A DNA stretch of 64,000 nucleotides from a virus, in the IMG/VR virus record IMGVR_UViG_3300007511_001544, positions 54,569-118,568 of that record; one strand, written 5' to 3'. Shown piece after piece: positions 17,715-50,038 of the stretch. The notes beneath the pieces are model-generated. The model worked only from the letters and a program-made list of their open reading frames with translations. It was not told the origin of the DNA and searched no databases. The translations under genes were made by a program, and so were the position numbers. How positions within the stretch are numbered: the first letter of the stretch is position 1; every line of letters begins with the position of its first letter.

Positions 17715-18040
17715 TGGTGGAGGTAGGGAGAATCGAACTCCCGTCTTGCCTAGTTCTATAGAAGGGGTCATTCACAAGGTTGGGTCTGTTTTTTTCGTCA
17801 GACAGCCCGCTTGACTAGATCGTTTTATTGCGGCTAAAACAATCAAAAGCACTTAGGACACCCAAATACGGCTTTCTGTTTATTGGCTGCCGTCGCCTCA
17901 TGGGAGGTCAGGTTTTTAAGCTGCCATCTCCATTTCGAAATCGTCATTGGCGATTAAAGTTTTAAGCGTTTTTAGTGAGCCACGCTTCCCTCACCCTTGC
18001 ACCTTTTCTATTTTCCCATCAATCGATACCGGTTACCCCC
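17715..18040 (-). ncRNA. ssrA: tmRNA (ssrA), one-piece
   Basis: A 326-nt RNA gene. The 5' end GGGGGTA pairs over 7 bp (with one G-U) with TACCTCC before A-CCA at 17715. A tRNA-type T-arm (GGGAGTTCGATTCTCCC) lies next to the 3' end. The tag frame is at 17916-17951: resume codon GCC, encoding ANDDFEMEMAA, then TAA. The tag starts AND and ends in AA, as in bacterial degradation tags. CCA is encoded. The gene has its own promoter and terminator. It would rescue stalled ribosomes and tag the released peptides for proteolysis. Confidence 0.95.
17916..17951 (-). other. tmRNA peptide-tag reading frame (ANDDFEMEMAA)
   Basis: Inside the tmRNA, GCC at 17949-17951 is followed by ten further sense codons and TAA at 17916-17918. 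The upstream TTAATC matches the usual context just before the resume codon. The C-terminal MAA resembles the hydrophobic-AA end read by ClpXP. Confidence 0.88.
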
Positions 18041-18170: not shown

Positions 18171-18992
18171 TTAAATTGCTAATTCTTCTTCACCAGCGGC
18201 CGCTTCTCCTTCAGCGCCGGCTTCTTCTGCTTCTTCTTCGCCTTCTACTTCTTCTTCTGGTGCTGTTTCTTCTGCCTCATCTTCAGCTTTTTCTTCTTCG
18301 TATTCTGGGGTTGTCACATCTGGTAGCGAGGCTGTTAACTCATCCTCGAATTTATCAAAGTAAAGCATCATATTGGTTAAAAGATAATCATAAAATAGTT
18401 TCTTATCTTTTTCGTCAGCCAACATATCATATGCGTCAACAATTTGTTTTTCTACGGATTTAAAAGTCTCAGCGGCAAAATTTCTACCTGTTTCATTTTG
18501 ATCATCGAGTCCTGCACCAAATTCTTCTTCCTCGCCGCCCTCGATATCGATAAATTCACCTTCGACACTTTCGGAGGCATCATCCTCTGGATCCAAGTCA
18601 ATCGATAACTTTTCAGAGAGTAAGTCTGGATCAATTTCATATACTATTGATTCTTCTTTCACTTCTGCCGCTTCGATGGGGTTAAGTGCGTTTTTAATGG
18701 CATGAATTATATGATTCCTAAATGACTCTCTTTGTTCTGGAGAAGTAGTCAACATACTATAATCATCTTGAATGGTTGGTATTATTTTTTTGAGTAAATC
18801 AGCCAAAACATTAATTCCAGTATGTTCGCTGGCTTCTGTAGTTCCTGTTTCCGCTTCTAAAATCCTTCTTATTGCAGATCTTAGTTTCTGTTCCTGAAGT
18901 TTTTTAGAGGATGCCGCCTTGTATATCCGCTTCCTGACATGTTCACGAATAAGCTGCTCGGCAATTAATTTATTTCTGTTGATTTTTTTCAT
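18171..18992 (-). CDS. Acidic low-complexity protein, unknown
   Basis: A 273-residue protein of unknown function. The first 50 residues are strongly basic and helical (MKKINRNKLIAEQLIREHV, LRSAIRRILEAE). The last 50 are almost all Glu and Ala. This basic-head, acidic-tail pattern suits a scaffold or internal head protein, but that is inference. The N-terminal helix resembles the tags on the proteins at 40.5-44.9 kb. It lies 10 bases after the ligase-nucleotidyltransferase gene and just upstream of the tmRNA gene. Confidence 0.75.
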   Translation of the reverse strand: MKKINRNKLIAEQLIREHVRKRIYKAASSKKLQEQKLRSAIRRILEAETGTTEASEHTGINVLADLLKKIIPTIQDDYSMLTTSPEQRESFRNHIIHAIKNALNPIEAAEVKEESIVYEIDPDLLSEKLSIDLDPEDDASESVEGEFIDIEGGEEEEFGAGLDDQNETGRNFAAETFKSVEKQIVDAYDMLADEKDKKLFYDYLLTNMMLYFDKFEDELTASLPDVTTPEYEEEKAEDEAEETAPEEEVEGEEEAEEAGAEGEAAAGEEELAI

Positions 18993-19002
18993 GGTTCTAT
19001 AA

Positions 19003-20976
19003 TTATCTCCGCCTTTGGCGTTTAGCTCTTTTAACCTTGGGTTTTTTAGTTTTCCTATAAGGGTTATAGCGATTGGGACGACCGCTCCAAGCCCCAGGAC
19101 CTATTTCAGCCGACCCAGCAGACATAGCTGACATTTCCTCTATAGTCGAGTCTATGATATTATTTATGGCTTCATTTGGGCTTGTCAGTATATTGTATGC
19201 TGCCTCTTTCTCTTCAGCATTTAAATGACGAGGGAGGTTTGCTTTAAATTCGTTTTTTCCTTCTTCACCTTGTAATAGCAAATTTCTCATTTGTGTTCCG
19301 CTTACTCCTCCTGCAAAAAGGGGAGTTATTACAGGCTCGACACTTACACCAGGGTTATGTCTTTCAGCATATGATTGGGCTCTATCAAATCTTGTATCAT
19401 CAACGTCTTTTTCGCTTTTCCCCAAAAGAGCAACATCTCCCTCTTTAAACACAGAGTTATCTGCTACTAGTTCATACACATCTCCAACTGGCGATGGGGT
19501 CGTTCCTGCTTGAACTTTAATTTTTGGAAAATCTTTGGTATAAAGATCCCATAGTTTAACGGACATATCAACAGTTACAGGAGGTCTTGATTTGGTAGAA
19601 ACAATTACTATTACTTCGTCAACATCATTTTTGTTTGCAAAGTATTTGGCAAGCAAAAAATGTCCGGCATGAGGAGGTTTAAAACCCCCTGGGATTAGGG
19701 CTATTCGTTTTCCTTCTTTTTTTGTCAATACCTGCCCAGTGGTAGCTAGAGCTTCTACGGTTACTTTCTTTTGTTTACCGCCATATTTAAACAACCCAAG
19801 AATTTGATTTAAGGGGGCAAAATTACCAGTTAATTTATACATGTGCCCGTCATAATCAAAGACAATCCCCTCGGCAGGAGTTGTTAAATTGCTCATATCT
19901 TTTATCTTATTTAAGTGAACTTGCATCACTTCCATGCTTTGTGGATCTTCTGGTCCTGCTTCTGCTATCTCCTTGACGGCATTTGCAAGTTCGGTTCGTT
20001 GCCGTTGCACTTCCGCATCAGTATCAACAATGAACATACTTTCTAATCCCTTGAGAACCTCGACTGCAAAATCGTGAACAATTAATTCTAATGGCTGAAT
20101 TGCTTGTTTTAATAGGATGGGCTTATTTCTAACAATATTTGTTAAATCTGATACCTCTTCTGGGTTCATTCGTTTTTTTAATTCTCTAAGACCAATATTA
20201 TCAGGTAGCTTTAAAAGGTACTTTATTGCTTCTGTTTTTAACTCGTCAGAAAAATTTACCTCTATACCTTGCCGTAGTCGGTTAAAAACATATTGACCAA
20301 CCCGATCAGAATCAGACACATCAGCTTCAGACATAGCATTTCCCAGAGATGCATATGCTTTCTTGAGTGCTTCTTCATCTTCTAATTTTTCTAGTTTTAT
20401 GATGGCACTTCTAACAAAAGAAAATCTATCTTCTGATAAGGAATCTTGCATTTGTCTTAGGCGACTATCCAATGCTGCAAGATTTGCAGACACATCTTCG
20501 TCTGTTTTCTCTCCGGACTCTTTGTCAAATTTAAAATGACCTCTATCATGTATTTTGAGTGTCTTAGAATCGTAATTGATTACATTTCTAGACTCAGGGT
20601 CCATAATTTCAGCGTTATACCAAATATCAGCGTTTGGTCCGAAGATAGCTAATTTCTCTTCGTCGCTCAAGGTTTCCACCGCTCTTTCAAAAGCAGCAAA
20701 TCCTTCTACAAATGTTTTCTCAAGGTTGCCCCGCCCTGCAAACTTTGTTGCCAATTGAACGGCATCTAATCCGTTCCCTCTAAGATTTCCTTTGTTTCGT
20801 GCGCCCTTTGCTTTGCCTTCGGGTATAGAATAAGAAAGAAAAAGATTTTGCCCGTCAACTTTCTCTTCCACTTCGAGGTCAGCCTCAGCAACAGCAGCCA
20901 TTATTTCCTTCATTTTACTGAAGGTTAAATTAGGATTATCATATAGGTGGGACATGTGTCCGGCAATGCCACCCAT
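19003..20976 (-). CDS. RNA/DNA ligase-like domain fused to NMNAT/cytidylyltransferase-like domain
   Basis: A 657-residue two-domain protein. The N-terminal half has a covalent nucleotidyltransferase signature: EEKVDGQNLF gives motif I K39-x-D-G, and later TPAEGIVFDYDGHMYKLTG resembles motifs IV and V. From about residue 425, GGFKPPHAGHFLLAKYF is the HxGH site and GVSGTQMRNLL the SxTxxR site of the NMNAT/PPAT adenylyltransferase superfamily. The last 20 residues are highly basic. ATG at 20976 has GAGGAA ahead. NAD-linked or RNA end repair is a plausible role; the substrate is unknown. Confidence 0.75.
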   Translation of the reverse strand: MGGIAGHMSHLYDNPNLTFSKMKEIMAAVAEADLEVEEKVDGQNLFLSYSIPEGKAKGARNKGNLRGNGLDAVQLATKFAGRGNLEKTFVEGFAAFERAVETLSDEEKLAIFGPNADIWYNAEIMDPESRNVINYDSKTLKIHDRGHFKFDKESGEKTDEDVSANLAALDSRLRQMQDSLSEDRFSFVRSAIIKLEKLEDEEALKKAYASLGNAMSEADVSDSDRVGQYVFNRLRQGIEVNFSDELKTEAIKYLLKLPDNIGLRELKKRMNPEEVSDLTNIVRNKPILLKQAIQPLELIVHDFAVEVLKGLESMFIVDTDAEVQRQRTELANAVKEIAEAGPEDPQSMEVMQVHLNKIKDMSNLTTPAEGIVFDYDGHMYKLTGNFAPLNQILGLFKYGGKQKKVTVEALATTGQVLTKKEGKRIALIPGGFKPPHAGHFLLAKYFANKNDVDEVIVIVSTKSRPPVTVDMSVKLWDLYTKDFPKIKVQAGTTPSPVGDVYELVADNSVFKEGDVALLGKSEKDVDDTRFDRAQSYAERHNPGVSVEPVITPLFAGGVSGTQMRNLLLQGEEGKNEFKANLPRHLNAEEKEAAYNILTSPNEAINNIIDSTIEEMSAMSAGSAEIGPGAWSGRPNRYNPYRKTKKPKVKRAKRQRRR

Positions 20977-30265: not shown

Positions 30266-30340
30266 TGGAGCGGCTACTCGGGATCGAACCGAGATCATCA
30301 GCTTGGAAGGCTGAGGTAATAACCATTATACGATAGCCGC
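30266..30340 (-). tRNA. tRNA-Gly(UCC)
   Basis: A 75-nt cloverleaf with acceptor GCGGCTA pairing with TAGCCGC and an encoded TCCA end. The anticodon loop CTTCCAA gives UCC. The T-arm contains GGTTCGATCCC. Confidence 0.94.
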
Positions 30341-30343
30341 TTA

Positions 30344-30419
30344 TGGTGCCCAAAGTAGGATTCGAACCTACGACCTGATGATTACAAATCAACTGCTCTC
30401 CCATCTGAGCTATTCGGGC
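30344..30419 (-). tRNA. tRNA-Thr(UGU)
   Basis: A 76-nt cloverleaf. Acceptor GCCCGAA pairs with TTTGGGC, followed by encoded ACCA. The anticodon loop TTTGTAA gives UGU. The anticodon stem has one T-T mismatch. Confidence 0.92.
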
Positions 30420-30420
30420 A

Positions 30421-30497
30421 TGGTAGGGGACCTGGGACTTGAACCCAGAACCTATCGATTATGAGTCGAGTGCTCTGACCAATTGAGCTAATCCCCC
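30421..30497 (-). tRNA. tRNA(CAU), probably Ile2 (lysidine substrate)
   Basis: A 77-nt cloverleaf with encoded ACCA and anticodon loop CTCATAA. It lacks the C1-A72 mismatch and the GC anticodon-stem pairs of initiators. The arm CGACTCATAATCG closely resembles bacterial tRNA-Ile2. A tilS gene overlaps it, so the CAU is probably modified to lysidine to read AUA. Elongator Met is the alternative. Confidence 0.88.
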
Positions 30498-31097
30498 ACA
30501 GTTATTATATTCCTTTTCTACAAGTTTTTTAAATGTTTTTTCGAGCCCTTTATTTACCTTGCGAGCATGAGGCATAATATCGTTTCTGATAATGCTTCTC
30601 ATAAACTTTCTATCGGTATTCCCTGGGTCAATCATAAACGGCACATCCTTACGTTCGCACCAATCTTCTAGCGAGCGTTTAGAGGTGGAGATAAACGGTC
30701 TATAAACGTTTTGATTCTTGTAGGGCATAAGTTTACCCTGTCCGTGCAAAGAAGAGAATAAAAACCACTCAATCACATCGTCTAAGTTGTGACCCGAAAC
30801 AATAGCCATGTCGAAACTGTGAAAGAACTTATAGCGTTCATCACGCCAATGCTCTTCAAGCGATTTTTTCGGAGGACACCCATTATAATTAATACCTACA
30901 ACAAGAGGAATATCTCTATTATCGCAAAAGTTCTTTACAAATCTTTTACATTTTCGTCCGAAGTCTGTGCCGTGGTCAAAATAGACTGCGGTTACCTCAT
31001 GGTTGTTGCTGAGAAAGTCTAGAATTGCCATGGAGTCTGGTCCGCCGCTGACAGCGACTCCTAATTCTCTCGGTAATTTTCCTAAGACTCGTAACAT
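30459..31097 (-). CDS. tilS: tRNA(Ile)-lysidine synthase (TilS), compact form
   Basis: A 212-residue N-type ATP pyrophosphatase. VAVSGGPDSMAIL is the PP-loop, followed by YFDHGT and SGHNLDDVIEWFL, all typical of TilS. It converts C34 of tRNA-Ile2(CAU) to lysidine. Bacterial TilS proteins are usually over 300 residues, so the C-terminal domains are missing. ATG at 31097 is just clear of the upstream tRNA-Arg. The frame runs into the tRNA(CAU) gene and stops at the TAA within its anticodon loop. Confidence 0.88.
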   Translation of the reverse strand: MLRVLGKLPRELGVAVSGGPDSMAILDFLSNNHEVTAVYFDHGTDFGRKCKRFVKNFCDNRDIPLVVGINYNGCPPKKSLEEHWRDERYKFFHSFDMAIVSGHNLDDVIEWFLFSSLHGQGKLMPYKNQNVYRPFISTSKRSLEDWCERKDVPFMIDPGNTDRKFMRSIIRNDIMPHARKVNKGLEKTFKKLVEKEYNNCGGLAQLVRALDS

Positions 31098-31107
31098 CTT
31101 AACCCCT

Positions 31108-31184
<77 letters not shown>

Positions 31185-31187
31185 ATT

Positions 31188-31263
31188 TGGAGCGGATGAT
31201 GGGATTCGAACCCACGACATTTTGATTGGCAACCAAACACTCTACCATCTGAGTTACATCCGC
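31188..31263 (-). tRNA. tRNA-Gly(GCC)
   Basis: A 76-nt cloverleaf. Acceptor GCGGATG pairs with CATCCGC and TCCA is encoded. The anticodon loop TTGCCAA gives GCC, with a perfect TTTGG/TCAAA-type stem. Three bases separate it from tRNA-Arg. Confidence 0.94.
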
Positions 31264-36086: not shown

Positions 36087-38030
36087 CTAACTATCTCGCC
36101 ATAAGTTGTTTGCGGCGAACTTTATGACCTCTTCTGCTGAGTTTTCGTCGTATCCATACTCATCAATCAAGGTTTTTACCATTTCATTGTACTTTCCTTG
36201 CTGTTTTTTGTCTCTAGACTTGGATTTGGTCACAATTCGTGAAATTTGCTTGACTGAAGAGGTCAATTTACTCTCAATTGCCTCTTTGAGTGGCGCATAC
36301 GACTGCCAATCGACTTTTTCGCCTCTCCGAAGCTTAGAAAACATGTATGCAGTGATATCAACTCGGAAATTCTCTTTAGAAGTACCAGTAATTCCAATTT
36401 GTTCCTCAATTGACTCCATAAATTTGTCATCTGGTGTTATTTCTTCGTTTGTGATGGCATCTTTAACAGTGGACATGTTCACATATGCTTCTGCATGGTC
36501 CAGATAGTTGTTAAATAAGGCTTCTGCCTGTTCATCATAGGCAGAAACGAATGCTTTTGTGATTTCTTTCTCTAAGATATTCAAATATTCATCGTGAAGG
36601 GTCTTTCCAAGGAAATCAAGGTACCGATTTCTATCGTCTTCTACCACTATTTGGTCTTTGACTTGCTTTATAAGCGTTTCTCGGATGGATATGGGGGTTA
36701 CCATATTTTTCTCACTATCTGACAATGCCGAATCAATTGCTTTCATGATGAATCTTGTAGAGATCCCGGTCATCCCTTCATCTCGTGCCTCATCTCTCAA
36801 GTCATTAATGTCTATTTTCTTTACATGCCCCTTTTCGATCACATCTTTACCATCATATAATTTCATCTTAGTAAGAGCATCTACTTTATTGGACGGACGC
36901 AATCGACTTAACACAGCAAACATCGAAGCAATCTCAAGTGTATGCGGTGCAATGTGACCATCGAAGTCAGATAGTCCCAACATTTTTTCATAAATCTTTA
37001 TTTCTTCAGTTACTTCCAAACAGTACGGCACATTTACTCTAACTATTCTATCCAAGATAGCTTCATTTGTATTTTCTGACTTAAACTTGTTCCATTCCGC
37101 CTCATTACAGTGCGCCAAGATAACCCCATCAAAATATATCATGGGACCTTTTCCTGGCGAAGGAACAGCTTTCTCTTGAGTGGCAGTAATCATGGTGTGT
37201 AAGAATTCAATTTCGTTTTTAAAGACTTCAACGAACTCTACGATACCTCTATTTCCAACATTAAACGCCCCGTTTAAAGAAAGGACCCTGGGGTCATCTT
37301 CGGGGTATAAATCTAATTTGGATATATCTTCGCTGCCGACCAAAATTGTCACATCCTGACTATTTGCGTCCATTGGTGGAACAACTCCTACACCACGTCT
37401 ACCACGAACAGAAAAAGATGACTGCGTAATGGGCATTGATGTATAATCGCTGCCAAATTCTTCCTTTAATCTAAACCTACAAACAGGACACAAGTCCCCC
37501 TCAATGCGAATCCCATATATTTTTTGAAACTCCTCCCGAAGAGAGCGAGGAATGAGGTGGAGGGGTTCCTCGTGGACAGGACACCCATCAATGTGATACA
37601 TTGGATCACATTCTTCCAGGGCTCCTTTAATGTGTTCCATCAGTGCAGACTTGCCAGCACCAACTGGGCCCAGCAGTAAAAGAACCTGGCGACTTTCTTC
37701 TCCCTTCAGTGCTGCTGAACGGAGGAACCTCATAATCTTTGCTAGAGATCTCTCCATTCCAAAAAACTTGCTTTGGAAATAATCATATGTTCTTATCTTC
37801 TCGCCGTTGAAAAGTTTATTACAACGATCCGAAGATTTTGACATCTTTGTAATGCCATGGTTTATGATGGCATCAAATAGTCTTCGGTGGGCGAGTTTAG
37901 AAACCCCAATGTCTTCTTCTATTATTTTAAGATAATCGGACAATGTTCCACGAAACTTATTCTTTTTCTTTTTTTCACGGTGTTTGCCAACAAGTTTCAG
38001 AAACTTATCAGATTTGTTATTTCTTGTCAT
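36087..38030 (-). CDS. prkA: PrkA-type serine protein kinase / AAA+ protein
   Basis: A 647-residue protein, full length for the family. LLLLGPVGAGKSALMEH is Walker A; the N-terminal AAA+ PrkA domain is followed by the C-terminal kinase-like domain, with YFDGVILAHCNEAEW between. In bacteria PrkA (YeaG) acts with YeaH and SpoVR in stationary-phase and nitrogen-starvation responses and in sporulation. Here all three genes stand in one tight operon, YeaH first and PrkA last. Confidence 0.92.
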   Translation of the reverse strand: MTRNNKSDKFLKLVGKHREKKKKNKFRGTLSDYLKIIEEDIGVSKLAHRRLFDAIINHGITKMSKSSDRCNKLFNGEKIRTYDYFQSKFFGMERSLAKIMRFLRSAALKGEESRQVLLLLGPVGAGKSALMEHIKGALEECDPMYHIDGCPVHEEPLHLIPRSLREEFQKIYGIRIEGDLCPVCRFRLKEEFGSDYTSMPITQSSFSVRGRRGVGVVPPMDANSQDVTILVGSEDISKLDLYPEDDPRVLSLNGAFNVGNRGIVEFVEVFKNEIEFLHTMITATQEKAVPSPGKGPMIYFDGVILAHCNEAEWNKFKSENTNEAILDRIVRVNVPYCLEVTEEIKIYEKMLGLSDFDGHIAPHTLEIASMFAVLSRLRPSNKVDALTKMKLYDGKDVIEKGHVKKIDINDLRDEARDEGMTGISTRFIMKAIDSALSDSEKNMVTPISIRETLIKQVKDQIVVEDDRNRYLDFLGKTLHDEYLNILEKEITKAFVSAYDEQAEALFNNYLDHAEAYVNMSTVKDAITNEEITPDDKFMESIEEQIGITGTSKENFRVDITAYMFSKLRRGEKVDWQSYAPLKEAIESKLTSSVKQISRIVTKSKSRDKKQQGKYNEMVKTLIDEYGYDENSAEEVIKFAANNLWRDS

Positions 38031-38033
38031 CTA

Positions 38034-39350
38034 TCAAAACTCCCAAAGATCGTCTTCTATTATTGTAGTGAATCTTACCCCACCTTCCCACAAATTGTTA
38101 ATGTGCTCAAACACTTTATTTGCTTCTGTCAATTCTAGATCCCTTCCATCATGCACATGTTTTAAAATTAGTGTGCCATCTTGTAGCAATTCTTCCACAA
38201 CTATAACAGGTATAGAATTGAGACCTACATTCCTAATTAGGTCGTCCCGAATAGTTCTCCAAGTATCTTCCGCAGAAACTTCAGTTATTCTATTGATCCC
38301 TTCGCTCTTATTAAATGCATAACTAAACAAATTCAGTTCCTTACATAAATCATAGTTAAGATGTGTTTTTAAAAATGTCTCATCGTTACAAGTTTCTCTT
38401 ATACGCATACATTCTTCAAATCCTTTGTGTTTCTCAATATATTTAAACATCTTAAAGCCTAGGTGGTAGGGGTTTATTCTTCCCAGATGTGCCCTTACTA
38501 CTTGGTTATGTAGTCGAATAAAAGAAATGTGATATTCATCGGGAAGCCTAAGAGCATTAACTATTTTTTCATGTATAAAACAAGCCCAACCCTCATTCAT
38601 AATCTTAGTACAAGCTTGTGGAACAAAATAACGTGATTGCTGCTCAATAATGTTGATTATGTCTATTTCCCAATTCTCAAGAAATCGATTGTGATCAGCA
38701 ATAAACCTAAGAACATTTTGATCAGGCTCTAGCGGTATTTTTTCTAAATCAAAATTGTCCCAATAGCCGGTCTTATCATTAAGCATCAGTTGTTGATAAT
38801 AGTTTTTCAGTTTTTTGGGATCTCTTCGTTTAACTCCCGGCGTTCTCGGAACTTGAAATTGGATGGCGTGACAGGCATCAATAATTTTCTCTACTTTGTC
38901 TATACCAATGTTCGGGTCTTCCATGTATTTTTTGATACGTTTACCGGCAGCTTTAAAACGGTCTAAGGCGGTATCCGCCCCGGTCTCAGCAAACATACGG
39001 TTGTTCTTAAAAAAGTCACTGTGACCGACACAATGTGCCATTGTAAGTATGTGGGTGGCCATCGGATTTTCGGTCATGAGATATGAGATGCTCGGGTTGG
39101 AATTAATAATCATCTCATAAGGCAGACCAGACATTCCCAAATTGTATTCTGTCTGGATTCTATCAAATGCTTTTCCATATGACCAATGGCGATAATGTGT
39201 GGGTAGCCCTGTGTATGCCATATGTCCAATCATTTCTTTATAGTCACATATTTCATACTCAATAGGATACCAGTCAAGATCCATTGCTTGGCCAAGCGCA
39301 CAAATCTTTGTATCCCATTCATGAAGCTCTTCCATAGACCAATCAGACAT
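38034..39350 (-). CDS. spoVR: SpoVR family protein
   Basis: A 438-residue protein. EGWACFIHEKIV, SRYFVPQACTKIMNEG and RINPYHLGFKMF are hallmark segments of SpoVR/YcgB. The family's biochemical function is not established; it is linked to sporulation cortex formation and always co-occurs with PrkA and YeaH. It overlaps the YeaH stop by eight bases and lies three bases before PrkA. Confidence 0.92.
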   Translation of the reverse strand: MSDWSMEELHEWDTKICALGQAMDLDWYPIEYEICDYKEMIGHMAYTGLPTHYRHWSYGKAFDRIQTEYNLGMSGLPYEMIINSNPSISYLMTENPMATHILTMAHCVGHSDFFKNNRMFAETGADTALDRFKAAGKRIKKYMEDPNIGIDKVEKIIDACHAIQFQVPRTPGVKRRDPKKLKNYYQQLMLNDKTGYWDNFDLEKIPLEPDQNVLRFIADHNRFLENWEIDIINIIEQQSRYFVPQACTKIMNEGWACFIHEKIVNALRLPDEYHISFIRLHNQVVRAHLGRINPYHLGFKMFKYIEKHKGFEECMRIRETCNDETFLKTHLNYDLCKELNLFSYAFNKSEGINRITEVSAEDTWRTIRDDLIRNVGLNSIPVIVVEELLQDGTLILKHVHDGRDLELTEANKVFEHINNLWEGGVRFTTIIEDDLWEF

Positions 39351-40533
39351 TATTATTTCCCCCGAACAATTTTTTAAAGGAAGCCCATATGTCCTTATGG
39401 TTCACAATCCTTATTCGCTTAAAGTCTTTATCTTCTATCAGCTTTAGCCAGTCCCATAATTTCTTTTCTGCTTTACCTGAAAATAAGTAAGCATCACTTA
39501 CTCCTCTCATTTCTCCAATCTCGGTGTAACACATCATTTGGTTTATATCTTTTAACTTTCGAAAGTTGGCTAGAGATTCTTTATTGTCGATTGGCCAATT
39601 GTCTCCATCCCCACAATAAAAAGTATACAAGTTCCAGTTATTAGGATGATATCGTTTCTCAATAATCTCTTCAACCTTTTTTAATCCAGTAGAGACAAGT
39701 GTTCCGCCATTAGGAACCTGTGTAAAAAATTGTTCCTCGTTTACTTCGTTGGCTTCCGCAGTATGGGACACAAAAATAACATCTATCGCCGAATAACGAT
39801 GATTTAGAAATTGATAAAGGAGAAAGAAAAAGCTTCGAGCAAGATATTTTTTTGCCTTTGTCATAGATCCTGACACGTCCATAATAAAAAACACAGCAGC
39901 CGTCGTGTTTTCTTTTTGCACTGGGGCTATATGTTTATAACGTAAGTCGCTGTCGTGAAATGTAAATCTCTCTTCACTATTAGGATCATAAGTACCTGCC
40001 TTTATGGCAGCCTTCTTTCTTCTAATCTTTTGTTTTATAGTTTCTTTTTTTGATAAACGTGGACGGATTCCATAGGGTCGCTTACCTTTGCGTTTGACTT
40101 TCTCTTCGGTGATAAATTTAAATTTCTTTTTCTCCAACTCAGGGAGGTTTAGATCGTTGAATAGATATTCCGCTAGCTCTTCTAGGCTCATTTCTATTTC
40201 ATACATTTCCTCGCCGGCTTCTTTGCCGGGCTTGTTTCCTTGACTTTGTGTGGGAGCTTGTTTCTTTCCGATCCTCTGTCCTTTATTTATGTTTTTACCT
40301 TGGGCAGATCCAACTCGTTTATTTTTTTCATTGGCTCCGAAAACAAATCTGTGCTCTTTGATCCCTTTTACTGGGATCCTTATTTTCTTTTTTCCGCTTT
40401 GCCCGATGATGCTTTCTTCGGCTACAACATCTTTAACACTGTCTTTAATCGCTTTTTCAATTTTTTTACGATGCCGTGATCTATCAGCCGATGCTCTGTC
40501 CGCAATTGTTTTGTGTTCTCGGAAAATACTCAT
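39343..40533 (-). CDS. yeaH: YeaH/YhbH family VWA protein (DUF444)
   Basis: A 396-residue protein. It has the basic N-terminus of DUF444, the RPRLSKKE and SEERFTFHDSDLRYKH segments, and a VWA domain whose MIDAS is MDVSGSMT. It is the usual partner of PrkA. An ACTACTTATATTA stretch lies just upstream of its ATG and may hold the promoter. First gene of the three-gene operon. Confidence 0.92.
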   Translation of the reverse strand: MSIFREHKTIADRASADRSRHRKKIEKAIKDSVKDVVAEESIIGQSGKKKIRIPVKGIKEHRFVFGANEKNKRVGSAQGKNINKGQRIGKKQAPTQSQGNKPGKEAGEEMYEIEMSLEELAEYLFNDLNLPELEKKKFKFITEEKVKRKGKRPYGIRPRLSKKETIKQKIRRKKAAIKAGTYDPNSEERFTFHDSDLRYKHIAPVQKENTTAAVFFIMDVSGSMTKAKKYLARSFFFLLYQFLNHRYSAIDVIFVSHTAEANEVNEEQFFTQVPNGGTLVSTGLKKVEEIIEKRYHPNNWNLYTFYCGDGDNWPIDNKESLANFRKLKDINQMMCYTEIGEMRGVSDAYLFSGKAEKKLWDWLKLIEDKDFKRIRIVNHKDIWASFKKLFGGNNNV

Positions 40534-40561: not shown

Positions 40562-40852
40562 TTAGGCTAATGTGAGTTCTGAAAGTTCTATCTCGTGTGT
40601 GTTGCCGTCGGGATCTCGAACAATAGCAACGCCCAATGCTGCACCAGGGCTTGTAATAAGCTCAACAACTTCTCCAGTCATCATCATTCTTTCGTAATCA
40701 ACTTTCTCTCGACCGCTTGCTGTGGTCTTAATCACTTTTGCTAACACATTCCAGTGTACAGAAGCACCAGGCTGAAAATCCTTCTCTAGCCCGAAGGCTT
40801 CTTGGAGTTCTTCTTTGATAATCGTTCTCAATAAGGCTTTTGTAATTTTCAT
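40562..40852 (-). CDS. Small tagged protein with SH3-like end
   Basis: A 96-residue protein. The N-terminus MKITKALLRTIIKEELQEAF is an amphipathic helix like the tags on the following genes. The rest is beta-rich: SVHWNVLAKVIK, GEVVELITSPGAALGVAIV. It ends two bases from the next gene. Function unknown. Confidence 0.68.
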   Translation of the reverse strand: MKITKALLRTIIKEELQEAFGLEKDFQPGASVHWNVLAKVIKTTASGREKVDYERMMMTGEVVELITSPGAALGVAIVRDPDGNTHEIELSELTLA

Positions 40853-40854
40853 TG

Positions 40855-41985
40855 TTATCTATACCCGGTTGGGTCTCCGTCTGGATGGTTCTGCTTATAG
40901 ACCTGATTTATATAGGTTTCAAAATCTTTTATCGTCGTTTTCCTTGTGCTCCGCATAAGTGAGGCGAGCATCTCAACAGTTTTTCGGGCTTCGGGGTTTT
41001 TGCCGGCGTTATGAAGGGAGTTATCAATATCCCTATAAAAACGACCCGCTCCATCTGGCTGACCAGCAAGATTTCGGAACATTACCTTACCTAAATCCTT
41101 GCGGTCGCTTTCTTCTCTATAGCCAACTTTACCTTGTACGCTGGCTCCTTCAAACTGCTCTTTCCCAGCAAGAATGTCTTGGGCTGCTTGGACAAACAAA
41201 AAGATTTCATCTTCGCCGAACTCTTTTCTTTCTCCCCTCTTTTTCCGAGCGGCCATAGAATCGGCACCGAGTGGCTCTGGCGGCTCACCAACTTTTACAC
41301 CAGACTTCTCTAGTTCTACCAAAAAGTCAGACAAACTGGTGATGGCTTTTCGCTTTCCAACTTCAACGTGCGGATATGTGCTTTGGTCTATGTGAATATA
41401 ATAAGGAATATTTCTTTGTTCCGCCACAGCCACGCCTCGTTGTAATCCGTCCAATTGCCACCAGGCAATACTACTTCGGGCCCGTCGTTCTATTTTACCT
41501 GAGAACATATCCTTTTCCTTTTTATAAATCGGAATAGCAAAATGTATCTCATCAATGTAGGTGTCGGCATCATCAATATAGGGTTCGTCTAGAAGGATTC
41601 TATCTTCTGCCTCAAAACCTTCTATAGACCCCGGCTCATCAACATTGGCTGCTTTCTTAGATGACCTGCCCCGTTTTGGATCAGCCCAATAATCAACAGG
41701 GACTCCTTTATATTTTTGGGACAAAGCCCGGCCATCCAATTTGAAAATAGCCCCTTGTGGATAGTTGCCGGTGTAAGCATTTGCTGGTGTTCTTGCGGTG
41801 GAAAAATAATAAAGCTTACCCTTACCTAACTCAGCCTCCACCTCTTTGGTAAATCCACCTGACGCCATGAACCTATTCTCTTCAAGTATCTTGGCTGCTT
41901 TTTCAACACCGGCAGTATAATGATAGACAACATCGGTGATGCCTTCCTTCAGGAACTTGCGCCAGTTTTCCATCAGGAGTTTCAT
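40855..41985 (-). CDS. Tagged ADP-ribosyltransferase-like protein
   Basis: A 376-residue protein. The first 14 residues MKLLMENWRKFLKE are the shared tag. VVYHYTAGVEKAAKIL (H22-Y-T) then resembles the first motif of DarT-type ADP-ribosyltransferases, and YYFSTARTPANAY may form the central strand. A charged C-terminal half has no recognised domain. T4 packages a tagged ADP-ribosyltransferase (Alt) in its head, so an analogous injected effector is plausible; this is inference. Confidence 0.55.
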   Translation of the reverse strand: MKLLMENWRKFLKEGITDVVYHYTAGVEKAAKILEENRFMASGGFTKEVEAELGKGKLYYFSTARTPANAYTGNYPQGAIFKLDGRALSQKYKGVPVDYWADPKRGRSSKKAANVDEPGSIEGFEAEDRILLDEPYIDDADTYIDEIHFAIPIYKKEKDMFSGKIERRARSSIAWWQLDGLQRGVAVAEQRNIPYYIHIDQSTYPHVEVGKRKAITSLSDFLVELEKSGVKVGEPPEPLGADSMAARKKRGERKEFGEDEIFLFVQAAQDILAGKEQFEGASVQGKVGYREESDRKDLGKVMFRNLAGQPDGAGRFYRDIDNSLHNAGKNPEARKTVEMLASLMRSTRKTTIKDFETYINQVYKQNHPDGDPTGYR

Positions 41986-41988
41986 GGT

Positions 41989-42585
41989 TTATACAAGACC
42001 TCCAAAATCTGACCAGTCTCCCATTTGTGCTACATTTAAAGTTTTCCTATCTTCTCTATATGCCATAAATTTCTGAATCAATGTCTTAATATCTGAAATA
42101 TCGCCGAACAACTCTTTCAACGCAACCACTGGGTTATCCAGCAATTTAAGAACACTCTGTATTAACTCTGGCATTTTTGCTACTTTGTCAACAATAAAAC
42201 CCCCTGTCATTTTTGCAATTGTGGTAAAAATCATGACTGCGAGATCGAAGTGTTTGTTTGTCATCAGCAATCTCAGTGCGCTTTGTTCTTTCCTAGATTG
42301 CCATTTTCCAAGGAGTCCTTTATCTCTCAGACCTTGAAGGAAGGCTTGCATTTTCTTGCCCATAAACTGAACAAATTCTTTAATTTTTTCCGCCGTCCAA
42401 TCTTTCATGTCGTTAATAACGCCCATGACTGCCTGTTTGGCATCTCTACCTTTAGAGACGGCCCAATCTATAAACCCTTCCTCAAGAACAACAAAGTGTT
42501 TATTAAAAAATTCATCAAACTCCTGTTCCCATAAAAGCCGCTGCTCATAGAGTCGCCAGTTTTCCATTATAAGTTTGTGTTTCAT
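41989..42585 (-). CDS. Tagged helical protein, unknown
   Basis: A 198-residue, mostly helical protein. It begins MKHKLIMENWRLYEQ, the shared tag. Two hydrophobic helices (FDLAVMIFTTIAKMTGGFIV and neighbours) suggest membrane contact. It overlaps the upstream stop by one base. Function unknown. Confidence 0.7.
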   Translation of the reverse strand: MKHKLIMENWRLYEQRLLWEQEFDEFFNKHFVVLEEGFIDWAVSKGRDAKQAVMGVINDMKDWTAEKIKEFVQFMGKKMQAFLQGLRDKGLLGKWQSRKEQSALRLLMTNKHFDLAVMIFTTIAKMTGGFIVDKVAKMPELIQSVLKLLDNPVVALKELFGDISDIKTLIQKFMAYREDRKTLNVAQMGDWSDFGGLV

Positions 42586-43298
42586 TATTGAGCCCTCGGG
42601 TATCTATCAAATAAATAGTTCGCCCAGCGTGTTTGCACCTTCTCCATCAACTCTGCAAGTTTTGCAGGGTCGTGCTCGTAGTACAATCCTGTATTGTAGA
42701 TAATATTGAGAACTCGCTCCAACACATTTGTAGCGGGCTTTCGGAAACTCTTTGCCTTTTTATAGATGCCAGCCACATGAGCCTTCACCTCAGCATCCGA
42801 AAGGTAATATTCCTCCGCTGTCTCCAAGTCTTTCCACACCTCTCGGTCGGGTACTGCTCGCTGTACAGCCATCAACTCTTCGGTGCTCTGGGAACTGTGC
42901 TCCAACTCGTGGCGGAAGGTCTCCTTTAACTCCGCAACCAAGCGGGACATAAAAGAATAATCTTCATCATACCGAGGAGGTAAAGTAATGTTTACATAAA
43001 TGTCGGAAGTCTTACGCTGCTCATCATCAGCATCTAAATCAAACTCATAAGAGCCATCACTAGAAACATATTCACCTTCTCTCATCTTAATGATAATCGT
43101 TCTCAAGTAGTCTATGTCATCTGTAATCTCGGGAACGTCCAGTGCGAAGTCAACTCTGCCGTTAGTGTTAAAAGCTTCTCTGACCGATTCGTCTTTGATG
43201 GCGTTTATGGTTTCCCTGCTAGCCATGGTAGCATAGCGATCAAGGGCTCTGCCTCTGACGATCTCTTCCATTATTAATTCTCTGAGGATTTCTATCAT
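42585..43298 (-). CDS. Tagged putative zinc metallopeptidase
   Basis: A 237-residue protein. The N-terminus MIEILRELIMEEI is a shorter form of the tag. FRHELEHSSQ carries HExxH (H130, E131, H134). A head-packaged peptidase would be unusual. No known family is recognised, and the HELEH could also be structural. Confidence 0.6.
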   Translation of the reverse strand: MIEILRELIMEEIVRGRALDRYATMASRETINAIKDESVREAFNTNGRVDFALDVPEITDDIDYLRTIIIKMREGEYVSSDGSYEFDLDADDEQRKTSDIYVNITLPPRYDEDYSFMSRLVAELKETFRHELEHSSQSTEELMAVQRAVPDREVWKDLETAEEYYLSDAEVKAHVAGIYKKAKSFRKPATNVLERVLNIIYNTGLYYEHDPAKLAELMEKVQTRWANYLFDRYPRAQ

Positions 43299-43744
43299 CT
43301 TACGGAGTCGTGCGGATTGCCTGTGAGATTTCCAATCGTTATGTGAAAGACTCGTTCGGGTTCTGGGTCTGTATTCTGGCTGCCGAGAAGCTCCATGACC
43401 TGCCTTACATAATCTCTCATCTCGTCCTGATTTAAAAGCCTAGTAGCCCATGATTCTTTGCCGGGAGATTTTCTCTGGAAAACTCTGGGTTCTATCTCTA
43501 TAGAAGGCGGGGGCGGGAAGTCTATTTCTTTTAGTTGCTTCTTAAACGGCTTTAAGATACTTTGATGAATCAAGGTAACATGGAGATCTTTTTCTTCTAA
43601 GGGGACCCCATATTCTGGGAGTGTGTCTTGCATCTCTTGCACTTGTGCAATTATTGCAGGGTCTGGTTTAATCATCAGAATGCCTCTGTACTTTACTTCT
43701 CCCTCCGAGAGGAATTTTCTCCACTCCCTCATTAGATGTTTCAT
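43295..43744 (-). CDS. Tagged 2H phosphoesterase-like protein
   Basis: A 149-residue protein. After the tag MKHLMREWRKFLSEG come two H-x-T motifs, H55 (DLHVTLIHQS) and H134 (FHITIGNL), spaced as in 2H phosphoesterases (LigT/CPD group). Those enzymes cleave cyclic or 2',5'-linked nucleotides, including anti-viral signal molecules. The role here is inferred. Confidence 0.68.
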   Translation of the reverse strand: MKHLMREWRKFLSEGEVKYRGILMIKPDPAIIAQVQEMQDTLPEYGVPLEEKDLHVTLIHQSILKPFKKQLKEIDFPPPPSIEIEPRVFQRKSPGKESWATRLLNQDEMRDYVRQVMELLGSQNTDPEPERVFHITIGNLTGNPHDSVR

Positions 43745-44571
43745 TTATCGAAGACCTTTAAGATTTTGACTGGTGTGGCTATGAACTCGTTCCACAAAGA
43801 TGTTCTCAGTTCACCATTGCAATCGTCTTCCAGATTGGTGCAGAGATTATTTTTATCTTTTCCTGGGTATCCCATGCGATGAAGATTGACGCACTTTCTT
43901 CCACTACTAACAGAATAAGATTTTACATCACTGCGAAAACCGGCACGAACGTTTCCTTCGAACTTCATTATCTTATTTGATTTTTTGCGAAAGAAATCAC
44001 GCTGCGCTACTGTATAGGCAGAAATGTCGAAAGGGTCACCGCCATCAATTGCTCTCTGGATTCTTTCGACCCCTTCCTCGTGTGTGTAATGATATAATAT
44101 TTTTGGATTGTTGGTTGATCCATATACTTGCTCAGTGAAAGCATCATCTACCAAGACGTATGGTTCGAGATCTCCACGAGAATAAAAGTAGGCAAATCGA
44201 AGTTCGCTGATGTCATCAAAATATATTTTAAACTCTTGTTCTAAACCCCAGAACCTATGGTTAACAAAATCCTCAATATGATCAAGGACATTTTTACTTG
44301 TTAAGAGTTCGTACCTCTCTACATCAACATTTAATTGGAAACCATAAAAATCTTTTATAAGAGATACTAACTCTTCGGGTCCCACAAGCTCTCCATGACT
44401 ATGGCTAATATAATGACCGTCTTTTTGGAACTTTAGGATTGTATTAACAAAGGCTTCCCACTCGACAAGTGTACGGAAAGCCTTTTCCGGCTTCACATAT
44501 CCGTGAACATAAATCTTTTTAAGTACTTCTTCATTGATGAACACTCGCCATCGGTCCATTAGTTTTTTCAT
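43741..44571 (-). CDS. Tagged protein with second HYT (ADP-ribosyltransferase-like) motif
   Basis: A 276-residue protein. MKKLMDRWRVFINEE is the tag. ILYHYTHEEGVERIQRAI (H161-Y-T) and the late SLWNEFIATPV resemble motif positions of ADP-ribosyltransferases. Residues 20-150 form an unknown N-terminal domain. It is not closely alike to the protein at 40855 beyond the tag and the HYT region. Confidence 0.55.
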   Translation of the reverse strand: MKKLMDRWRVFINEEVLKKIYVHGYVKPEKAFRTLVEWEAFVNTILKFQKDGHYISHSHGELVGPEELVSLIKDFYGFQLNVDVERYELLTSKNVLDHIEDFVNHRFWGLEQEFKIYFDDISELRFAYFYSRGDLEPYVLVDDAFTEQVYGSTNNPKILYHYTHEEGVERIQRAIDGGDPFDISAYTVAQRDFFRKKSNKIMKFEGNVRAGFRSDVKSYSVSSGRKCVNLHRMGYPGKDKNNLCTNLEDDCNGELRTSLWNEFIATPVKILKVFDK

Positions 44572-44762
44572 TGTTTTGGCGGACCTGATTCACCGCCATC
44601 GGAAGCTTCTTCGGTAAATGGGGCAGTGTTTGGATTTTTACCAGATTTTGTTTTCTTTATCATGTCCTTAAAAGAACGACGATAAATTTTTTGCATCTTA
44701 CCTTCTTCGGCTGCTTCTTTTATAACTTCCTTGATGAAGTCTCTAAGCTCACTTAGATTCAC
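44568..44762 (-). CDS. Small tagged protein
   Basis: A 64-residue protein that is mostly tag: MNLSELRDFIKEVIKEAAEE followed by a basic, disordered tail. It overlaps its neighbours by four and 14 bases. It may be an internal head peptide. Confidence 0.62.
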   Translation of the reverse strand: MNLSELRDFIKEVIKEAAEEGKMQKIYRRSFKDMIKKTKSGKNPNTAPFTEEASDGGESGPPKQ

Positions 44763-44880
44763 TTTCTTCTTTTTCCTGCTCTTTAATCTTTTGCATAACC
44801 TTTTCGGTTATTGATTGAGAACGTGCATTTTCTCGCAATGCATCTCTTATTGTCTTCCAGAGCTTAGTTTTAGTAATCAT
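44749..44880 (-). CDS. Small tagged protein, first of the tagged run
   Basis: A 43-residue protein, MITKTKLWKTIRDALRENA and a charged tail. ATG at 44880 with GGAGG nine bases ahead is preferred to an upstream in-frame start. ACTATTTAT stands at 44903-44911, a candidate promoter for the run. Confidence 0.6.
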   Translation of the reverse strand: MITKTKLWKTIRDALRENARSQSITEKVMQKIKEQEKEESESK

Positions 44881-44902: not shown

Positions 44903-44911
44903 ATAAATAGT
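44903..44911 (-). promoter_or_regulatory. Candidate promoter element ACTATTTAT
   Basis: The string lies 23-31 bases before the first gene of the tagged run, followed by a strong ribosome site. It is identical to the elements at 27516-27524 and 23678-23686. Confidence 0.35.
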
Positions 44912-47658: not shown

Positions 47659-48879
47659 TCAATCGATCTGGATTACCTTCTCGTTGGTCTTGAAGTAGGG
47701 ACGGCTGGCACCACGCTCATCCGTCATCCACATCCGTTGAGCCTTGCAGGCTTTGGGCTTGGGAGCTTCCATGTCCGTCAGAATAATGACACCATCAAAG
47801 CTGTTAGCGTTGACGTAATCGGTGGGAGCGTTGAAGCAGGTTCCCCCGCAGAGCACACGCTCGGCTGGCTTGCTCTGACCTTTCTTCCAAACGTAGACCT
47901 TGCTCTCGTCAACATCCGTATCGAAGGGCACCACCGTGAACTCTGCCAGCTTGGCTAGCTTGTTGAGTTCTCCGAAGAACTGTGACAGCATGTCATCGCT
48001 GACAGAGCCGGACTGGTCAATGGCGATGGCAATCTTTGCCTGCCGCTGGGTCTTCTTGCCTGGGTGAATGTAGGCATACCGCTTGTTGATCCGCTTGACG
48101 CTGGACCTGCGGCTGGCACGCTGGGAGGTCTTGATGAAGTACCTCAGTACCTTCTTCCAGTCTACCTTGGTCTCCAGTCGTTTTAAGATTTCTTGTTTTA
48201 CTTCCCCGCTCATTGAGCCCCAGCCTTTGGCAGACTGGCTAGCCTCTTGGGCAGCATCCTTCATGGCTTGCTTGAGGCGTTCCTTTGCCATCTGATTGGC
48301 TGCCTGCTGGGCAGGGCTGTCAGCGTTGTCATCCCAACCGGAGTGATCATCAAAGCTGCCAGGGTTGCCAGCACTAGGCTGACCCTCGCCACCGGACTCA
48401 CCGCTAGCATCGCCCTCACCGCTCTCAGAGCTATCACCTTCGCCCTCACCCTCTTCACTCTTGGGCAGGTTGGCAAGGTACCACTCAGCGGTCTTGTGTA
48501 GTGGAAGATCTTCGAAGGGACCGACACCAGGCATACATGCCATCTCGGGCAGTTCACCTTGGAGGTGGCTGTTGATAGCCAGGTCAGCAGCAATGTTCCA
48601 AGCCTTGTGAGGAACTCCCTCTGGCTTACGGCTGGTGACATGCTCGAAGATCAAGTGGTAGAACTCATGCTTGAGAACACCACGAACCTGCTCTTCAGGC
48701 AGGCTGGCAAAGAAGTCAGGGTTGTAGATCATCTCAAACTGAGCAGAGTCGGGATCAACCCGAACACCAGCAGTTGGGATGCCATAGTCGGCACGCTTCT
48801 CAATCTTGCGGCTGAGTGCAGCAAAGAACGGCTCATCCATGAGCAGTCGGTAAGCGTGCAGTTTAAGGTCAAAGCTCAT
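47659..48879 (-). CDS. DUF2201 metallopeptidase-like protein with VWA domain
   Basis: A 406-residue protein. The N-terminal part has GVLKHEFYHLIFEH (HExxH), and KAWNIAADLAINSHL as in the DUF2201 family. A Ser/Gly/Glu-rich linker (about 147-195) follows. The C-terminal part is a VWA-like domain with AIAIDQSGSVSDDML. This family is the usual partner of a MoxR AAA+ ATPase, encoded just upstream here. It has its own shared-type promoter. Confidence 0.88.
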   Translation of the reverse strand: MSFDLKLHAYRLLMDEPFFAALSRKIEKRADYGIPTAGVRVDPDSAQFEMIYNPDFFASLPEEQVRGVLKHEFYHLIFEHVTSRKPEGVPHKAWNIAADLAINSHLQGELPEMACMPGVGPFEDLPLHKTAEWYLANLPKSEEGEGEGDSSESGEGDASGESGGEGQPSAGNPGSFDDHSGWDDNADSPAQQAANQMAKERLKQAMKDAAQEASQSAKGWGSMSGEVKQEILKRLETKVDWKKVLRYFIKTSQRASRRSSVKRINKRYAYIHPGKKTQRQAKIAIAIDQSGSVSDDMLSQFFGELNKLAKLAEFTVVPFDTDVDESKVYVWKKGQSKPAERVLCGGTCFNAPTDYVNANSFDGVIILTDMEAPKPKACKAQRMWMTDERGASRPYFKTNEKVIQID

Positions 48880-48900
48880 GCTGTCCCTCTCTCCACTAGT

Positions 48901-48928
48901 ATAATAGCATTGATCCAGTGTTTGTCAA
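48901..48928 (-). promoter_or_regulatory. Strong promoter, shared phage type
   Basis: TTGACA at 48923-48928, 16-base spacer ending in ATGC, and TATTAT at 48901-48906. It drives the DUF2201/VWA gene. Confidence 0.85.
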
Positions 48929-48942
48929 CTTTTTATTGCTGC

Positions 48943-48975
48943 CCTCAAAACAGAAAGCCCAGCTTGCGCCGGGCT
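48943..48975 (-). terminator. Rho-independent terminator after the MoxR gene
   Basis: The reverse strand has GCCCGGC-GCAA-GCTGGGC followed by TTTCTGTTTT. It stands after the MoxR stop and ahead of the next promoter. Confidence 0.85.
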
Positions 48976-48997
48976 CCTGACCTGGGATGAGAGAGAG

Positions 48998-50038
48998 TTA
49001 GGCTCCCAGGATTTTGGAGAGGTGGGCACCGACAGCACCTTCGTTGGCACCGTGGAACTTCACCACATTGTCTTGGACACCGGCTTGGGAGATCACTCCC
49101 CAAAGCTTCATGGCAGCCTCGCTGGGCAGCGTCACGAAGTAGTTGGCAAGGTTCTCAAGGTGACCCTCGCTGAGTTCAGCCTTGAGGATTTCTTCAGCCT
49201 CGACCTTTTCGATCAAGGCGCAGTGTTCATTCAGGGAGAAAGCAGCCAGGGCTTCCACCCGCTCACCTTCGAGCAGTTGCTCAACCGTGACAACCCGCTC
49301 GTAGTTCTTAGCGTAGTCGTTGAGAGCGACAGCAGCTTCGAAGCCGACGAAGCTCTGAGCCAGGTTAAACATTGCAGGGCTGGCTTCCAAAGCGTCTGCC
49401 TGCTTCAGCACCTTGTCAAGGCGATCCCAAGACCGACGGCTGGGATACCGCTTGTTCGGCTCAATGTCACCGTTGTGCTCAAGGTGGGCACGGTTTTGGT
49501 TGATGAAGTCCCAAATGAGACCGTCAACATTGTTCTTAGCCCATGCGAGCCAATCTTCTACCGTGGGCTCAATGTCCCAAACAGACCAGCGGTCAAGTTC
49601 CGCAGGATCCATCTCATTCACTTGGTAGTTCTCGCCGTGTTCCCCGCCGTTGACGGCAGCGAAGATCAGCGTATCGTCGTGAAGGTTGTGACCGTTGAGC
49701 TTCCGGCTGTCCGTCAACTCAAAGATTCCTTGGCGAACTTCCAAGGTAGCACGGTCAACCTCATCGAGGAACAAGACCACCGGCTCTTCACAAGCCTGCT
49801 TAAACCAATCAGGAGGATTGAAGGCGGTGCGATTGCCTTCGATGCTAGGCAGACCAACCAAGTCACCCTCGGTCATCTGGCTGGCACGACGCTCAACAAC
49901 AGGCAAGCCGGCAGCGGCAGCCAACTGATAAACAACTTGGCTCTTACCAATACCGTGGCGACCACGGAGAAGAACCGGCAATCGAGCAGCACTCACGCTG
50001 GGTGCTAGGCTCACAAAAGTCTTGAAGTCTACAGACAT
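48998..50038 (-). CDS. MoxR-type AAA+ ATPase
   Basis: A 346-residue protein. LLRGRHGIGKSQVVYQL is Walker A and EPVVLFLDEVDRA Walker B, with a sensor-1 DTLIFAAVNGG. MoxR ATPases act as chaperones that insert metals or assemble complexes with VWA partners; the neighbour at 47659 is such a partner. It stands alone between its own promoter and terminator. Confidence 0.9.
   Translation of the reverse strand: MSVDFKTFVSLAPSVSAARLPVLLRGRHGIGKSQVVYQLAAAAGLPVVERRASQMTEGDLVGLPSIEGNRTAFNPPDWFKQACEEPVVLFLDEVDRATLEVRQGIFELTDSRKLNGHNLHDDTLIFAAVNGGEHGENYQVNEMDPAELDRWSVWDIEPTVEDWLAWAKNNVDGLIWDFINQNRAHLEHNGDIEPNKRYPSRRSWDRLDKVLKQADALEASPAMFNLAQSFVGFEAAVALNDYAKNYERVVTVEQLLEGERVEALAAFSLNEHCALIEKVEAEEILKAELSEGHLENLANYFVTLPSEAAMKLWGVISQAGVQDNVVKFHGANEGAVGAHLSKILGA

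Follow-up and report, generated by a model that had tools for sequence, protein, structure and literature searches.

In bacteriophage T4, the internal proteins IPI, IPII and IPIII and the protein Alt carry a capsid-targeting sequence (Mullaney and Black 1996, as described in PMC5694885). T4 sequences used here were taken from database records; those of IPII and IPIII annotate a 10-residue leader, MKTYQEFIAE/A, where the slash (as below) marks a known or possible cleavage point. Of the T4 internal proteins, the three that were tested all act as inhibitors of GmrSD restriction enzymes (PMC12373910). The subject of this report is a 14-residue N-terminal peptide, called tag A, that begins several otherwise unrelated proteins of a large, uncultured T4-like marine phage and is a likely capsid-targeting propeptide. 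The DNA analysed, referred to as the window, is a stretch of 64,000 nucleotides covering positions 54569-118568 of the IMG/VR phage contig G000 (118,568 bases).

Tag A resembles the T4 sequence in being a short leader on unrelated proteins, in its hydrophobic-x-Glu end, and in its connection with a protease of the gp21/S77 kind. The spacing aromatic-x-x-F-[IL]-x-E is also shared. The two differ in length (14 residues against 10) and in having Trp-Arg in place of Tyr-Gln, and the MK-x-[LI]-[ML]-[ET] part of tag A is not found in T4. They differ in scale as well: the cargo families number more than 100 here, where packaging is a prediction, and for T-even phages at least ten have been reported.

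Another known system is that of phiKZ-like giant phages. In SPN3US, for instance, a protease removes N-terminal propeptides from head and ejection proteins (PMC5694885, PMC10052503). These propeptides are mostly 111-254 residues long and belong to a fixed set of proteins, whereas tag A is short and sits on changing cargo. A third comparison is with giant polyvalent proteins, which contain ADP-ribosyltransferase (ART), GNAT and 2H phosphoesterase domains and for which packaging and injection have been inferred (PMC5512222, PMC7824862). Their domain set overlaps with that behind tag A (ART, GNAT, 2H phosphoesterase, methylase; Iyer et al. 2017, PMC5512222). A polyvalent protein is one giant polypeptide, however, while here the proteins are separate and small, each with its own tag. 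The DUF3293 domain found in a tagged protein of this phage also occurs inside an 11-kilobase (kb) gene for a “structural protein” in Flavobacterium elemo phages.

Searches of the open-access literature on capsid targeting and marine T4-like phages returned only the work on T4 and giant phages. The motif strings were absent from 5.39 million open papers, a set that leaves out most subscription journals and bioRxiv. The logic of packaging is already known from T4; tag A and its scale were not found in the searchable literature.

One tag on many unrelated proteins

Tag A, with the form MKxLMExWRxFLxE, is clear in four window genes, all on the minus strand: 40855-41985 (MKLLMENWRKFLKE/G), 41989-42585 (MKHKLIMENWRLYEQ), 43295-43744 (MKHLMREWRKFLSE/G) and 43741-44571 (MKKLMDRWRVFINE/E). 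Genes are named below by the first of these coordinates. A position-specific profile, built solely from different phages and different body families, gives them scores of 39.4, 20.9, 25.8 and 15.2, respectively. The best untagged gene of the contig reaches 0.1, and among shuffled N-termini a score of 15 was reached once in 263,100 trials. The same profile finds five further tag-A genes outside the window, at contig positions 192-3322, with scores of 29-34. Across five related genomes there are 34 N-terminal occurrences of the motif, compared with 3 among 194,081 internal positions. The bodies behind the four window tags are unrelated to one another. Tag A is real, and more extensive than first noted.

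The first-pass annotation had described eight consecutive tagged genes. This stands for the four above, which it had singled out as the clearest and as unrelated beyond the tag. Three others (40562, 44568 and 44749) are not loose copies of tag A; they are assigned, some of them only as likely members, to a second N-terminal type, tag B. The remaining one, 42585, has a loose N-terminus. Weaker forms proposed at 18171 and 20977 both fall under the profile threshold. The N-terminus of 20977 reads MKSILNEVTKKFLLKE/A, a candidate tag whose end matches the capsid-protein site.

Pattern scans of IMG/VR found at least 120 stretches with the first pattern and 39 with the second. The first pattern gave 7 matches in 257 gigabases of bacterial and archaeal genomes. 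From the IMG/VR loci fetched, at least 302 distinct tag-A proteins were gathered. They fall into 114 body clusters, 75 of them singletons (BLASTP at E<1e-3; contig ends truncate some of the proteins). Aligning 104 representatives gives the consensus MKLLMENWRxFLxE, with almost no conserved position after it.

The bodies of these 104 representatives match a range of Pfam families, including GNAT (4), ART-PolyVal (3), NUDIX (2) and SAM-lyase-like proteins (2). Further matches are to kinases, among them zeta-toxin-like and guanylate kinase, and to C5 DNA methylase, M23 murein peptidase and DUF3990; with PHROGs, a ParB C-terminal domain and endolysins are also found. The majority of tagged bodies have no recognisable domain. 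Each body that does match Pfam has a single domain, and the enzyme domains start directly behind the tag: at residue 24 for NUDIX, 21 for guanylate kinase and 25 for DNA methylase. The tag is thus an addition to whole domains.

At the DNA level, the 33-nucleotide cores of the tags take 285 different sequences among 302 genes. Glu and Lys codons are used in the tags as they are in the bodies; the Ile, Thr and Leu codons of the tags are somewhat skewed. Judged by these counts, selection acts on the protein rather than the DNA of the tag.

Seven marine contigs (L098, L131, L161, L165, L188, L218 and L235) each have several close-set tagged genes with wholly different bodies. They may be useful when mining for candidate injected enzymes.

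Tag B has the form MKITKxxL[RK]x[IL]IKE. It was found in at least 119 IMG/VR stretches and forms arrays of its own, with up to six genes in a few kb (for instance L019 2907-4058, L028 102-557 and L037 7676-9327). Here too a Glu at residue 14 is conserved (82%), with conservation continuing two residues further.

The end of the tag and the prohead protease

To avoid circularity, the end of tag A was studied in proteins chosen by their upstream residues (MKxxMExWRx[FY] or MKKxxTEWRx[FY]), with no constraint on the positions downstream. After weighting over 75 body clusters, Glu stands at position 14 (P1) in 79%, and Leu, Ile, Val or Met at position 12 (P3) in 84%. From position 15 onward, no residue exceeds 23%. 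By these statistics, the tag end has the hydrophobic-x-Glu form of T4 gp21 cleavage sites.

The major capsid proteins provide a second comparison. The T4 gp23 site is FLTE65/A. In a capsid-protein alignment, it falls on LLKE/Q, LLRE/T, LLRE/S and LLKE/T in four phages of the group, and on LISE/A and IVSE/A in two isolates.

Five orthologues of 43741, at 76-79% identity, have drifted tags (MSYIRRWKNFLSE, MHQARQWYNFINE, MLREWRAFLNE, MGSNHKWKQFINE and MEHFPKWNRFINE) in which only W..F[IL].E survives, with the spacing of T4 Y..FI.E. Orthologues of 40855 in 9 phages retain E6, W8, R9 and E14. Set against the T4 leader itself, tag A agrees in its core positions and their spacing, over a length too short for a significant alignment.

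A prohead protease gene, which the first-pass annotation had suggested looking for, is present in contig G001. This contig overlaps G000 at 99.97-99.99% identity over about 100 kb. Its head module consists of terminase, portal, S77 protease (Peptidase_S77, E 5e-29), a small MKKSELKNIIKE protein, scaffold (G001:20691-21695), major capsid protein and sheath. A small gene between protease and scaffold (G001:19475-19861) has a tag-B-like start. Among further tag-A contigs of at least 121 kb, 16 of 17 encode an S77 protease (16 of 20 overall), as do 12 of 14 tag-B contigs. By comparison, it was found in 1 of 12 arbitrary viral contigs, a weak baseline with only two contigs of at least 120 kb.

An example of a leader on a detected virion protein can be found in Synechococcus phage S-SM1. 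Its T4-GC190 cytidylyltransferase starts MKKFSAFLNE/AERS and is the sole S-SM1 gene fitting the T4 leader pattern. T4-GC190 is among the 41 proteins detected by mass spectrometry in purified S-SM1 virions (Sullivan et al. 2010, PMC3037559). It is like the tag-A proteins in having a leader, and unlike them in that the leader has the T4 form rather than Trp-Arg and occurs on a single gene. A protein with a cytidylyltransferase domain from a marine contig bears tag A (MRKLFENWRRFLTE). In the window itself, an untagged gene at 19003-20976 (minus strand) encodes, in the C-terminal half of its protein, a cytidylyltransferase-like domain homologous to a free-standing tag-A protein of another phage (L101:6463-7074; E 2e-15).

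The body of 40855 also occurs behind other leaders. Its homologues in further T4-like phages have leaders with comparable ends, MKKFNEFANE in Vibrio phage K566, and MIKLKSLLQE and MIKLMSLVTE in Microcystis phage Mel-JY01. The body is shared and the leader changes from one phage lineage to another, which would be expected of leaders suited to the scaffold and protease of each phage. A search for leader arrays gave 2 hits in Mel-JY01 and 3 in Flavobacterium phage immuto, against 0.7 expected, which is suggestive. A 20-residue tag query gave no match among named phages, being too short for that database.

Capsid cargo and its alternatives

The first-pass annotation read the tagged proteins as T4-style capsid cargo. 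The predictions of this reading at the level of sequence held, namely the S77 protease, the form of the tag end and the presence of T4-form leaders on virion proteins (T4 IPII and IPIII, S-SM1 GC190). Since tag A closes with the cleavage motif of a head protease that the phage itself encodes, the proteins are most likely packed in the head and delivered with the DNA. We regard it as quite likely that tag A is a propeptide of the T4 kind, and that the proteins behind it are packaged and cleaved by the S77 protease.

In the proposed mechanism, the 14 residues MK-x-[LI]-[ML]-[ET]-x-W-R-x-[FY]-[LI]-x-E would form an amphipathic helix that binds the scaffold core and draws the protein into the prohead. 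The gp21-type S77 protease would then cut after Glu, releasing the intact enzyme within the head. Finally, the freed enzyme would pass into the host along with the DNA and act as an early effector. The last role, that of host effector, is inferred from the precedent of the T4 internal proteins.

Several observations weigh against packaging and cleavage. About one fifth of tags, including that of 41989, lack Glu at P1. After the cut (P1'), Glu, Gly, Ser or Gln is frequent, whereas T4 has Ala. One 147-kb tag contig shows no S77 protease; the contig to which the window belongs is itself a fragment that lacks the head module. Between GC190 and the tag-A cytidylyltransferase only one motif can be aligned, so the claim is limited to a shared Pfam domain and does not extend to orthology. 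The phages are uncultured, and both steps are predictions from sequence.

Three other explanations of the tag are less likely. The tagged bodies may enter the capsid as structural or assembly factors, such as core filler or ejection machinery, and not as host effectors. T4 gp67, gp68 and gp22 are likewise prohead proteins of the core, some large recurring cargo clusters have no recognised enzyme domain, and an M23 murein peptidase in the cargo could act in entry. This explanation seems unlikely to cover the set, which includes many enzymes directed at the host or at nucleotides (NUDIX, GNAT, ART-PolyVal, guanylate kinase, zeta-toxin-like kinase, DNA methylase) and whose repertoire turns over among close relatives. 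Alternately, the tag might stay uncleaved and act as a localisation helix inside the infected cell, at a membrane surface or a phage-made compartment. Its shortness, amphipathic character and basic residues would suit such a role, and AlphaFold models residues 2-14 as a helix at low confidence. A localisation helix does not predict a sharp hydrophobic-x-Glu end, nor its match to the mapped cleavage form of T4 and the capsid proteins. The association with S77 and the T4-form leaders on known virion proteins are also unexpected under it, and we consider it somewhat less probable still.

A further explanation needs no function of the peptide at all. Arrays of short adjacent genes with common 5' ends suit recombination, and the skewed Ile, Thr and Leu codons of the tags could be read in the same way, so that the shared start would be a by-product of gene shuffling (a recombination site or a translation-start element). 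The near absence of repeated tag DNA and the ordinary use of Glu and Lys codons speak against this, as do the tags of orthologues, which diverge yet keep W, F and E. It is the least credible of the three, and we hold it to be very improbable.

The propeptide reading can be extended to both tags. Tags A and B may together form an “addressed cargo” system of marine T4-superfamily phages, with dozens of interchangeable head-loaded effectors per lineage and bodies swapped behind the tag. Separate proteins would then do the work of giant polyvalent proteins. This wider proposal is tentative, and we would put it at somewhat under an even chance.

If the propeptide reading is true, the tag becomes a reading key: from its presence on a gene of an uncultured ocean phage, one could predict that the product enters the host as infection begins. 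Hundreds of “hypothetical proteins” would become candidate anti-defence or takeover enzymes, a class of which few are known in T4. It would also offer a sequence-based test of how phages decide between giant polyvalent proteins and individual effectors with tags. The tag might even serve as a signal for loading foreign proteins into the heads of marine T4-like phages, a use to which the T4 leader has already been put (PMC5694885).

Genes of the array and their surroundings

The protein of 40855 has 376 residues and belongs to a large-phage family with a YHYT motif and no assigned function; its tag lies at 41944-41985, with a cut predicted after E14 from the tag-end statistics and orthologues. 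The proposal that 40855 and 43741 are ART-like, made from HYT motifs, found no support in Pfam, PDB profile or fold searches: neither has a Pfam or PDB profile match. The predicted structure of 40855 (mean predicted local distance difference test, pLDDT, 68.6) has no PDB match at E<0.001, and the fold search returns only unnamed large-phage proteins. The ART label of 40855, which would be based on the YHYT motif, is therefore not adopted. The 276-residue protein of 43741 also has no assigned function, and its predicted structure (pLDDT 47.7) is unusable. Its tag occupies 44530-44571, and W8, F11, Ile/Leu12 and E14 are kept in orthologues.

The protein of 41989 has 198 residues, no recognised domain and an irregular tag end (MKHKLIMENWRLYEQRLLWE/Q). 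Its candidate tag covers 42526-42585, where the first possible gp21-type site would follow LLWE.

The 149-residue protein of 43295 (tag at 43703-43744) is probably, on weak grounds, a 2H phosphoesterase, as the first-pass annotation had proposed. It matches the Pfam family LigT_PEase at E=4e-4 and 21.0 bits, under the curated cut-off of 23.3. It also has HVT and HIT motifs; H55, T57 and H134 are invariant in three orthologues, and HIS replaces HIT in two.

Gene 42585 (42585-43298) encodes 237 residues with the N-terminus MIEILRELIME/E, a poor fit to both tags. It is a distant homologue of a canonical tag-A family encoded elsewhere in contig G000. The HELEH motif behind its earlier description as a zincin is present; no Pfam zincin or peptidase profile matches.

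The tag-B protein of 40562 (40562-40852) has 96 residues and starts MKITKALLRTIIKE/E. Two small proteins are tag-B-like. The gene at 44568-44762 has a GTG start and encodes 64 residues (VNLSELRDFIKE/V); its orthologues begin MKIKxxxLRxxV. The gene at 44749-44880 has its true ATG at 44880, downstream of GGAGG, and from this corrected start begins MITKTKLWKTIRD, with a possible site at MITKTKLWKTIRDALRE/N. All the genes of the array are on the minus strand.

A promoter-like element, ACTATTTA(T), lies on the same strand at 44904-44911, about 25-30 nucleotides ahead of the array's first gene, and again at 42612-42619, 27-34 nucleotides upstream of the 41989 start. It is enriched in the intergenic gaps of two relatives (10 of 53 and 10 of 69). 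In related contigs it precedes the sheath, tube and scaffold genes and several tagged ones by roughly 30-80 nucleotides. This placement suggests late co-expression of the tagged genes with the head genes. Over the whole window, 6 copies against 2.8 expected are not significant, and the element is therefore counted as supportive only.

Directly downstream of the array, at 36087-40533 (minus strand), is a complete trio of PrkA kinase, SpoVR and YeaH/DUF444 genes (Pfam E 2e-143, 6e-116 and 4e-103). This is a bacterial stress and sporulation gene set, here encoded by a phage. At 47659-50038 (minus strand), an AAA_5 ATPase adjoins a DUF2201 putative metallopeptidase/VWA protein, forming a MoxR-like pair. 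The window also contains a phage transfer-messenger RNA at 17715-18040 (minus strand), with the tag ANDDFEMEMAA and a full-length Rfam match of 79.5 bits. Five tRNA genes (Gly-TCC, Thr, Met, Arg and Gly-GCC) are clustered at 30266-31263 on the minus strand.

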